From: Candidatus Loosdrechtia aerotolerans
GTDB lineage: Bacteria; Planctomycetota; Brocadiia; Brocadiales; Brocadiaceae
Assembly: GCA_021646405.1 (NCBI GenBank)
Contig: SOER01000021.1
Coordinates: forward strand, 1-50,662
DNA length: 50,662 bases
Reading direction: 5' to 3'
This document shows, in pieces, positions 21,465 through 30,313 of this stretch. Under the pieces are notes generated by a model. It was given only the letters and a program-made list of their open reading frames with translations, had not been told where the DNA came from and ran no database searches. The position numbers and the translations under genes are program-made. Numbering within the stretch: the stretch's first letter is position 1; each line of letters starts with the position of its first letter.

Positions 21465-21577
21465 TAAATCCATGAATCCTTCTGTATCAATAATATTATC
21501 AGAAAGTGTGGTTACATTTTCATGAGATCCTTACCTGCACTTTCGATATAAGTGACAGTATCAGTACATCTTAAAAT

Positions 21578-21637
21578 GGGGTTGCTGATCTCATTATGCT
21601 ATTTTCGAATCATCTTAAATAGCCTCACAGCAACCCC
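21578..21637 (+). repeat. Inverted repeat, terminator-like, after the lipoprotein gene
   Basis: GGGGTTGCTG (21578-21587) and CAGCAACCCC (21628-21637) are perfect complements separated by 40 bases, and flanking AAAAT/ATTTT-like sequence extends the pairing. With the long loop and only a short T run it may be a weak terminator or the footprint of a small repeat element. Confidence 0.55.
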
Positions 21638-21726
21638 TAATTTTAAAGAATTGGTCATATCATTTTTTCTTTACAATTGCTTTTAGCACATAATTGAGAG
21701 AAGAACCAAAATAAAAATTTTTTTTA

Positions 21727-21766
21727 TTGACATTTAGTAATAATTGTTATCTAATAACAATTATTA
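21727..21766 (+). promoter_or_regulatory. Promoter overlapped by a perfect 29-bp palindrome (Fur/PerR-like operator)
   Basis: TTGACA (21727-21732), 17-base spacer, TCTAAT (21750-21755). A 13-base arm TAATAATTGTTAT (21738-21750) is repeated inverted at 21754-21766 around the centre CTA; the match is perfect. The palindrome covers the spacer and the -10 box, where a bound repressor would block RNA polymerase. AT-rich palindromes of this kind are typical targets of Fur-superfamily regulators. Rubrerythrin and ferritin downstream fit PerR- or Fur-type control by peroxide or iron. The regulator's identity is inference. Confidence 0.75.
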
Positions 21767-21772
21767 ATTTAG

Positions 21773-21967
21773 ATGACTGGAGAATGCAGGTGCAGATGCT
21801 CAGAGAATCTGGAAGGAAGAACATTAGCATGCTCGCTGCCTGAGAAATGCTATAGAGTTGCTGACTTTCACTACAAAGCGCATGACGATTCGAGATGCCG
21901 TCATAATTCTGCCAGCTGTCCGGAAGGCTATTGCAAAGACTGTAATAAGGATAAATTTGGACAATGA
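21773..21967 (+). CDS. Small cysteine-rich protein
   Basis: 64 residues, nine cysteines (5, 7, 9, 20, 26, 42, 49, 54, 57) and several histidines: ECRCRCSE at the start, SLPEKCYRV, then CRHNSASCPEGYCKDC. It begins about 11 bases after the expected transcription start, so it would be almost leaderless; no Shine-Dalgarno is seen. The rubrerythrin gene starts 33 bases later. The cysteine pattern suggests a metal-binding peptide, which fits its place ahead of two iron/peroxide proteins. It could instead be an untranslated leader that happens to be open. I do not recognise a family. Confidence 0.45.
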   Translation: MTGECRCRCSENLEGRTLACSLPEKCYRVADFHYKAHDDSRCRHNSASCPEGYCKDCNKDKFGQ

Positions 21968-22000
21968 AAATATAATACATTGAGAAAAGGAGGGATTTGT

Positions 22001-22573
22001 ATGTCAGTAAAAGGTACAAAGACGGAAAAGAATATTTTGACGGCGTTCTGCGGCGAATCACAGGCGCGGAACCGGTACACCTATTTTTCCAGGCAGGCCA
22101 AGAAAGAAGGTTATGAGCAGATTTCTGCGATTTTTACCGAGACGGCCGACCAGGAAAAAGAACACGCCAAGCGGTTGTTTAAGTTTCTTGAGGGTGGTGA
22201 AGTTGAGATTTCTGCAGTATTTCCTGCCGGTATGATTGGTACGACAGAGGAAAACCTCGAAGAGGCAGCTAAAGGCGAAGACTATGAAACTACCCAAATG
22301 TATCCGGATTTTGCACAAATTGCAGAAAGTGAAGGTTTAAAAGAGGTCGCAATCGTCTTTCGCAATATTGCCGTCGCCGAGGCCCGTCATCGTGACCGCT
22401 ACATTGCGTTGAGGAAAAATATTAAGACAGGCAAGGTCTTTACGCGTGAAAAACCCGTTCGCTGGGTCTGTCGTAACTGTGGTTATGTACACGAAAGCAC
22501 AGAAGCTCTTAAGAACTGTCCGGCGTGTGCTCATCCGCAGGCTCATTTTGAACTTGAGGCAGTTAATTATTAA
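22001..22573 (+). CDS. Rubrerythrin
   Basis: Peroxide reductase with a di-iron ferritin-like domain and a rubredoxin domain. ATG 22001 is preceded by AAGGAGG; an in-frame TTG at 21980 has nothing upstream. 190 residues: the first ExxR helix (FCGESQARNRYTYFSRQA), DQEKEHAKRLFKFLEGG, AESEGLKEVAIVFRNIAVAEARHRDRY supply the iron ligands; the C-terminal CRNCGY...CPACAHP loads one Fe. It removes H2O2 in anaerobes using rubredoxin or NAD(P)H-linked electrons. Clustering with ferritin points to peroxide and iron stress. Confidence 0.96.
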   Translation: MSVKGTKTEKNILTAFCGESQARNRYTYFSRQAKKEGYEQISAIFTETADQEKEHAKRLFKFLEGGEVEISAVFPAGMIGTTEENLEEAAKGEDYETTQMYPDFAQIAESEGLKEVAIVFRNIAVAEARHRDRYIALRKNIKTGKVFTREKPVRWVCRNCGYVHESTEALKNCPACAHPQAHFELEAVNY

Positions 22574-22639
22574 ACTAAAAATCACAATTGCAAGCCGTTG
22601 CAAACCGTTCCATGAACGGCACCGTTGGTTTTGAAAATG

Positions 22640-22679
22640 TCCGGGCTCCCGGTTCCGGAGGCGAAAGGAGGGGCCCGGA
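22640..22679 (+). repeat. GC-rich hairpin between rubrerythrin and ferritin
   Basis: TCCGGGCTCC (22640-22649) pairs with GGGGCCCGGA (22670-22679) over 10 bp with one G-T. No T run follows, so it is not a standard terminator; it may be an RNA-stability or processing element, or a small repeat. Confidence 0.5.
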
Positions 22680-22782
22680 TATGTAGTTTCGCTCTTCTGC
22701 AACTTTTATGAAAACTATGAAAAACGGTTAGAATGTGAAAAGTATGAGTTGAAATTTGATAATTGAGATCAAAGAATAGAGA

Positions 22783-23313
22783 ATGATTATGATAAACGAG
22801 AAGATGGAAAAAGCCTTCAATAGACAGATTAATGCGGAAACCTACTCGGCCTATTTGTATTGGTCAATGTCAGCAGCGCTGGAATATATGAATTTGCCCG
22901 GATTTGCCAACTGGATGCAAGTTCAGGCACAGGAAGAAATGACGCATGCAGTAAAGTTCTTCCGTCACATTATGGAGCGGGGCGGCAGGGTAGCGCTTAC
23001 CGCTATTGACGGTCCGCCGACCGGATGGAAGGATGTTGAGGATGTCTTCAAAAATATTCAAAAGCATGAGGAGCATGTAACCAGCCTTATCAATGATCTG
23101 ATGGATCTTGCTCTGACGGAAAAAGATCACGCGGCGGTGATGTTTCTGCAGTGGTTTGTAACCGAGCAGGTTGAAGAAGAATACATGGTACATGAAATTC
23201 TCGGCAAGCTGAAAGTTGCCGGAACGGCATCGGCTGCACTCTATATGCTTGACAGGGAAATGGCTCAGCGTGTCTTTGTGCCACCGACAACCGCTCAGAA
23301 GGTTCAAGGGTAG
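22783..23313 (+). CDS. Ferritin
   Basis: 176-residue bacterial non-haem ferritin of the FtnA type, storing iron as ferrihydrite in a 24-mer. Four-helix ferroxidase ligands are seen: NRQINAETYSAYLYWSMSAA (first Glu), QAQEEMTHAVKFFRHI (Glu-Glu-x-x-His), and TEQVEEEYMVHEIL (Glu-rich last helix). Two nearby starts exist, ATG 22783 and ATG 22789; neither has a strong ribosome binding site. It follows rubrerythrin by about 210 bases and could share the palindrome-controlled promoter. Confidence 0.95.
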   Translation: MIMINEKMEKAFNRQINAETYSAYLYWSMSAALEYMNLPGFANWMQVQAQEEMTHAVKFFRHIMERGGRVALTAIDGPPTGWKDVEDVFKNIQKHEEHVTSLINDLMDLALTEKDHAAVMFLQWFVTEQVEEEYMVHEILGKLKVAGTASAALYMLDREMAQRVFVPPTTAQKVQG

Positions 23314-23390: not shown

Positions 23391-24521
23391 AGTACCTGAC
23401 CATAAATAAATGCATAAAATATTAGGGTGTTTGAAATGAGATATTGTATTGAGAGCCAAAAAACTTAAGAATATGTTCTACAGAACGAACTAAACGACGA
23501 AAAGAAGTGTAAGCAGAAAAGGGTAACCATTTGTATTTCATCAACCGCCAAAGATTTTCAATAAGGTTGAGTTCCGGGCAATAGGGTGGCAAATATTTAA
23601 TAATAAGGTTCTTTTTAGCCCAGAAAGGGATATGCCGGATAAATTCCCTGGAGGTATGAACGGGGGCATTATCAAGAAGAACAAAAGTCTTCTTCTGGAT
23701 ATGCTCGATAAATTGGTTAAAGCACATGATGACAACAGAAGTATCTACTTTCCCTTCTATAACAAAAGGATAGAGCCTGTTTTGTCTGTTCAGAAAGCCC
23801 AACACATTCAGACGACTACTACGAGAAGAAGGAATCCTGAGGGTTTCTCCAACACCTTGCCATGCATAAGGAACACAAGGTTCCAGGGAAAATCCTGTAG
23901 CGTCAAAATAGCGAAGGTCAATTTCTCCAGCTTTTTCTCTTTGCTGAAGCTTCTCAATCATTTGTTGCCGCTGATGATACCGATAGGGATGAGGTTGTTT
24001 TGCAGGAGATTTTTTTATTCGTTTCCATACAAGGCGAGCTCTTTTTGCAATTCTCCTAATCGTTTTTGTGCTCACTCGCTTATCGGTTTTCTGCTGGAGG
24101 ACAGCAGCAACCTTTTTTAAATCTCTGGGATATTCTTTGAGGTATTTCAAAGCTTTTTGTTGCTCTGCCGGGGTAAGGATACGAGGACGTCCACTTCGAG
24201 GAAGATTGTAAAGGCCAACTAATCCTAAGCTCTGCCAACGATCAATCCAGGAAGAAACGCTTCTGCGATCCACTTGATAAATCTTGGCAATTTCATTAAT
24301 GGGAAACTTCTGATGACTCAGGAGAATACTATGGGCTCGCATCCGAACCCATCGAGAGTGATGACGTTGATACAATTCCTGTAATGTCTGAATTTCTTCT
24401 TTATTAAGAGGAGATACATATTTCATAATTCTTTTTCCTATAAAGATTCTTCAAAAATTAACTCCTTAAGTTTATATTACAAAATCTCCTCCATTTATAC
24501 AAATATTTATGTCCAGGTACT
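23391..24521 (-). mobile_element. Complete IS630-family insertion sequence
   Basis: The left end AGTACCTGACCATAAATA (from 23391) is matched inverted at the right end (up to 24521); 24 of about 28 bases agree by eye. TA (23389-23390 and 24522-24523) flanks both ends, the target duplication expected for IS630/Tc1-mariner. Length 1131 bp with one intact transposase on the minus strand. It appears complete and possibly active. The flanks rejoin into non-coding DNA, so no gene was broken. Confidence 0.85.
23422..24426 (-). CDS. IS630-family transposase
   Basis: 334 residues. N-terminal helix-turn-helix DNA-binding region (INEIAKIYQVDRRSVSSWIDRW, then a second HTH around RVSTKTIRRIAKRA), followed by a DDE domain: first Asp in LRYFDATGFS, second Asp in VLLDNAPVHTS, and Glu in PELNLIENLWRLMK. 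All three catalytic residues and the LPPYCPELNLIEN block are intact. Unlike many family members it is a single open frame and needs no frameshift. Confidence 0.95.
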   Translation of the reverse strand: MKYVSPLNKEEIQTLQELYQRHHSRWVRMRAHSILLSHQKFPINEIAKIYQVDRRSVSSWIDRWQSLGLVGLYNLPRSGRPRILTPAEQQKALKYLKEYPRDLKKVAAVLQQKTDKRVSTKTIRRIAKRARLVWKRIKKSPAKQPHPYRYHQRQQMIEKLQQREKAGEIDLRYFDATGFSLEPCVPYAWQGVGETLRIPSSRSSRLNVLGFLNRQNRLYPFVIEGKVDTSVVIMCFNQFIEHIQKKTFVLLDNAPVHTSREFIRHIPFWAKKNLIIKYLPPYCPELNLIENLWRLMKYKWLPFSAYTSFRRLVRSVEHILKFFGSQYNISFQTP

Positions 24522-30237: not shown

Positions 30238-30313
30238 CCTTTGCGTTTTTTGCGCCTTTGCGGTGAATCTTTTACGGTAGTATTACACCGCAAAGGCGCA
30301 AAGAACGCAAAGG
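30238..30313. repeat. 28-bp inverted repeat, GCAAAGG family
   Basis: The arms at 30238-30265 and 30286-30313 are complementary over 28 bases with one mismatch, around a 20-base loop. They share the CACCGCAAAGGCGCAAAG core of the hairpin at 28589. No T run follows, so it is a dispersed repeat rather than a terminator. Confidence 0.85.

Follow-up and report, generated by a model that had tools for sequence, protein, structure and literature searches.

Operons that join perR to a rubrerythrin gene (rbr), with palindromic PerR operators, are already known in deltaproteobacteria, from Desulfovibrio and Geobacter, in the portion of Rodionov et al. 2004 (PMC545781) considered here. The literature that we searched contained no PerR operators of the lineage of Candidatus Loosdrechtia aerotolerans. 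In the window, by which we mean the whole stretch of 50,662 nucleotides that was analysed, we found a perfect 29-bp palindrome on a promoter ahead of rubrerythrin and ferritin genes. From sequence comparisons, we consider it probable that this is a PerR-type (Fur-family) operator in a former perR-rubrerythrin-ferritin promoter, bound by the resident PerR. Most likely, a PerR-type switch site has been kept here although the operon's own repressor gene has decayed to a remnant.

The promoter consists of a -35 box TTGACA (21727–21732, plus strand), in a register common to the sister genome G001 and several perR-rbr operons, a 17-bp spacer and a -10 box TCTAAT (21750–21755, plus strand; a 5/6 match, TTTAAT in the sister). 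It is not listed by our promoter scan, because the -10 box is without the usual A at position 2. The palindrome (21738–21766, no strand assigned) reads TAATAATTGTTAT-CTA-ATAACAATTATTA, with 13 of 13 arm pairs complementary around a 3-bp spacer, and takes in the final 12 bases of the promoter spacer, the whole -10 box and a further 11 bases downstream. A preliminary description had reported exactly such 13-base arms around CTA; they are confirmed, and its range of 21727–21766 correctly spans TTGACA, the 17-bp spacer and TCTAAT. The palindrome is exact and no product of chance. Perfect arms of 13 bp were reached in none of 100 dinucleotide shuffles of the window (longest 12, at spacers of 0–10), in none of 2000 shuffles of 21465–22000 and in three of 5000 when 21701–21780, which is 83% A+T, was shuffled. 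At up to three mismatches, there is no second copy of the palindrome in the 3,260,342-bp (3.26-Mb), 61-contig genome of the window (G000).

The rubrerythrin and ferritin named in the preliminary description are borne out by Pfam. The rubrerythrin gene (22001–22573, plus strand; PF02915) also matches the NCBIfam equivalog NF045767 with 283 bits against a cut-off of 200. The ferritin gene (about 22783–23313, plus strand; PF00210) follows in the same order as in G001, and its alternative start at 22789 is the one used in the sister. GC-rich inverted repeats (TCCGGGC...GCCCGGA, 22638–22680), partly conserved in the sister, lie between the two genes, and directly 3' of ferritin is a DDE-type transposase gene (23422–24426, minus strand), which we take to resemble IS630. 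Elsewhere in the window, a group II intron end (Rfam RF00029) is located at the contig start (52–125), and a 28-nt inverted repeat (30238–30313) has 96% complementary arms 20 nt apart.

The 230 bp separating the palindrome from rubrerythrin contain a degraded perR gene. This refines the operon as previously described: its own perR was originally present and is now a relic. In G001, the same promoter is followed by an intact gene for a 150-aa Fur/PerR-family protein, whose best solved relative is Bacillus subtilis PerR, and then by rubrerythrin (88% identical). The window's copy of this perR has lost about 250 bp, including the DNA-binding half, and a damaged 3' part is left, of which 21827–21970 aligns to the sister gene with a score of 58 (shuffles: mean 25, maximum 43, n = 200). 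The relic still carries DFHYK and the CxxC end. In the original frame there are a TAG stop at the Q of the HQH metal motif and a 2-bp insertion causing a frameshift; thus, the nominal 64-aa ORF at 21773–21967 (plus strand) is only partly in the PerR frame. We rejected this ORF as a working small protein and treat it as a relic because its first half is out of the PerR frame and it matches no Pfam family. No intact copy of the linked perR was found elsewhere in G000, where the only matches are a Fur-like protein on contig C33 and a PerR-like protein on contig C59.

We compared this promoter with those of other perR-rbr operons. Of 80 named rbr loci, 12 have a Fur-family ORF directly upstream of rbr (same strand, ending at most 400 nt before it), and in a phylum search rbr adjoins perR in all nine loci (L166–L174) with a PerR 51–67% identical. 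We analysed 22 perR-rbr promoters, including the window and the sister, three of them without a promoter match; 11 of the 12 linked loci were used, L101 being omitted for its uncertain start. The 15-mer abutting the -10 box is at least 5/7 palindromic in eight of the 22, against a mean of 0.79 and a maximum of 4 with shuffled spacers (n = 300). The sister's spacer box, TAGTAAT-A-ATTACTA, is a perfect 7/7 repeat and the sole exact copy in G001. Its counterpart in the window, identified through the relatives, is TAGTAAT-A-ATTGTTA (21735–21749, plus strand), in which the right half of the ancestral box is altered; it is 5/7 palindromic, with the larger 13-3-13 symmetry in addition. The locus has the 7-1-7 inverted repeat of a PerR-type operator, and it overlaps the core promoter: the 17-bp spacer is taken up by the box, and the -10 box lies within the palindrome. 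This refines the site of the preliminary description: the conserved element is the 7-1-7 box, which overlaps only the left arm of the palindrome, whose centre lies 10 bp further downstream. The relaxed palindrome ATTGTTATNNNATAACAAT with three mismatches gave 110 matches (55 per strand), and its reversed control gave 100, which is no signal, and TAGTAATNATTACTA at two mismatches showed no excess per strand (43 versus 46 in G000, 19 versus 62 in G001). Two adjoining sites one mismatch from TAGTAATNATTACTA (L194/L196, G000:C29:236-267) are found close to a contig end.

The genome encodes a PerR on contig C59. The best NCBIfam match of this resident protein is the PerR model NF052545 (134.7 bits, under the cut-off of 180), and its closest solved relative in the PDB is B. 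subtilis PerR (2fe3). Resident-perR promoters (21 sequences) have TTAACAATCATTTTTnTTTA in common. The arm TAATAATTGTTAT occurs exactly three times in G000: in both arms of the palindrome and at C33:65513-65525, where an AhpC/TSA peroxiredoxin gene starts about 20 bp downstream. The promoter of the resident perR contains the near match TAACAATCATT. Thus, the genome-wide half-site search proposed in the preliminary description yields one other exact copy, at a peroxide gene, and the same motif recurs at perR, both of which support its Fur/PerR reading. G001 has no exact TAATAATTGTTAT; a single copy with one mismatch, TAGTAATTGTTAT, precedes its own peroxiredoxin gene. At one mismatch, the half-site is in no excess genome-wide (20 against 35 in the control). 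The 14-mer TAAYAATYATTWNT has 12 matches in G000 against 6 in the control, and 5 in G001 against 6. Four of the 12 are at peroxide genes (the two arms, the perR promoter and the peroxiredoxin promoter), and the remaining eight are without an evident peroxide link; one of these eight PerR-like 14-mers (L225, G000:C55:18703-18716) has a multicopper-oxidase-like gene about 240 bp downstream. In the promoters of the other rubrerythrin paralogues, the motif is weak or absent and not consistent.

Motif models (PWMs) free of this genus were trained on 18 peroxiredoxin and/or 17 perR promoters from outside it, at widths of 13, 15 and 17, with L003, L059, L061, L069 and L164 excluded from the perR set. 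In all nine settings, some position within the palindrome ranked third or better out of about 101,300 in the window, and in four it ranked first. The 12-, 15- and 20-mer PWMs that include this genus were built on 17 sites chosen from 21 after near-duplicates were thinned, with the perR sites of the window genome and its sister among them; L059 had been dropped from the 21-sequence resident-perR set as a duplicate of L003. Palindrome positions take ranks 1, 2 and 3 of 101,296 with the 15-mer and just ranks 5 and 8 with the 20-mer, under which the sister's site scores higher. A symmetric PWM, built on 12 sites including that of the own genome, has one other window site (2547) outscoring the palindrome. 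Just past the -10 box, a pattern match revealed a right inverted box, TAACAAT-T-ATTAATT (21755–21769, plus strand), with a PWM rank of 2 out of 101,296; it is weaker under other models. Which of the two sites, the window's or the sister's, is the better fit to the resident PerR depends on the model: the window site is with the 12-mer, 15-mer, symmetric, perR-only (13, 15 and 17), peroxiredoxin-only 13 and combined 13 and 17 models, and is not with the 20-mer, peroxiredoxin-only 15 and 17 and combined 15 models. In the symmetric-PWM count, which covers 20 family-level promoters out of 30 peroxiredoxin loci (L247 and L254 are uncounted as incomplete genes), a box exceeds the threshold, set at the window's 51st best score, in 19 of the 20, own genome and sister included, and a second box does so in just three. 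The box is mostly missing from the peroxiredoxin promoters of order-level relatives.

The likeliest mechanism suggested by these sites is the action of resident PerR through two inverted boxes. Metal-loaded PerR would bind as two dimers, one at 21735–21749 and one, inverted, at 21755–21769, with the box centres 20 bp apart. Models of Fur-family tetramers exist, as the part of PMC3293774 considered here describes. The bound protein would cover the promoter from the spacer through the -10 box to the expected start site and so block RNA polymerase, and peroxide, by oxidizing PerR, would release rubrerythrin and ferritin from repression. This two-box form is seen in one genome, with a single congener compared.

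Rubrerythrin of the window type is present in two of 24 family genomes, G000 and G001; elsewhere in the family it is missing or the best match reaches 38% over the full length, apart from one split match of 47–63% in G021. The linked perR is found among family genomes only in G001, and a genome from another class has an rbr 82% and a perR 67% identical. This distribution would fit an import after which the window's species lost the linked perR. We put forward only tentatively, as a possible and rather doubtful history, a regulatory capture between the two sister species: the operon would probably have arrived together with its perR, and after this repressor was lost in one species the operator would have been tuned to the resident PerR, its arms becoming the same as the resident peroxiredoxin operator and the site doubling into a symmetric one for two dimers.

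Alternatively, the palindrome might be a fossil that served the operon's own PerR, the operon now being constitutive, like the derepressed perR operon of Clostridioides difficile 630Δerm; in the part of PMC11841134 considered here, an rbr operon that lost its PerR is documented to be expressed constitutively. The linked perR is indeed destroyed, and the right half of the ancestral box has changed. However, drift would be expected without selection, yet the palindrome is more exact than its counterpart in the sister (13 versus 10 of 13 pairs), and its arms are identical to the resident peroxiredoxin operator. We thus regard a fossil as unlikely. It is quite improbable that the site belongs to another metalloregulator, either the second Fur-family protein (C33) or one of the proteins with a FeoA domain (C8 and C60), presumably DtxR-like to judge from their length and this domain. 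Such proteins are encoded in the genome, and ferritin is often iron-regulated; a FeoA search, used as a test for Fur, returned mostly long proteins resembling DtxR-type regulators. The preliminary description had proposed a search for the half-site before fur or perR, and a near match was found for perR only: across the family, the motif occurs in the promoters of the resident perR and of peroxiredoxin, but the fur promoters in G000 and G001 lack it (best scores 3.5 and 4.9), which favours PerR over Fur. An RNA hairpin or terminator is hardly credible: the 13-bp arms and 3-nt loop could fold if transcribed, but the overlap of the palindrome with the spacer and -10 box puts its left arm ahead of the expected start, G-C pairs are few, no T-run terminator was called at the site and an Rfam search there matched no family.

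A PerR-type operator used by the resident PerR would define a candidate PerR regulon, consisting of perR, peroxiredoxin and rubrerythrin-ferritin, for a little-studied lineage, and offers a concrete case of the fate of an operator once the adjoining repressor gene decays. If the resident PerR took over, the pair of sister species shows an operon changing hands.

Within the portions of PMC545781 considered, the locus is similar to those of Desulfovibrio and Geobacter in its perR-rbr order, in a palindrome placed before the operon and, as in Geobacter, overlapping the -10 box, and in having ahpC as a co-target, here a putative one; its site also resembles the Desulfovibrio site AtCAGTAATtGTTACTGgT with a GTAAT-N-(A/G)TTAC core. 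In those bacteria, however, perR is intact and the palindrome has 19 bp, whereas here perR is a relic and the palindrome has 29 bp. The B. subtilis PerR box quoted in the same source, TTATAATNATTATAA, shares the 7-1-7 form, the A+T-richness and the location at promoters of peroxide genes, but has different core bases from the TAGTAAT / TAACAAT type found here. The rbr1-perR-rbo operon of C. difficile 630Δerm, as given in the part of PMC11841134 considered, is likewise a rubrerythrin operon in which the linked perR function has been lost; there, a point mutation led to derepression, whereas the perR of the window has largely disappeared and its genome retains a second PerR. What appears unusual is that the operator persists, and is more symmetric, after the adjoining repressor gene has decayed.
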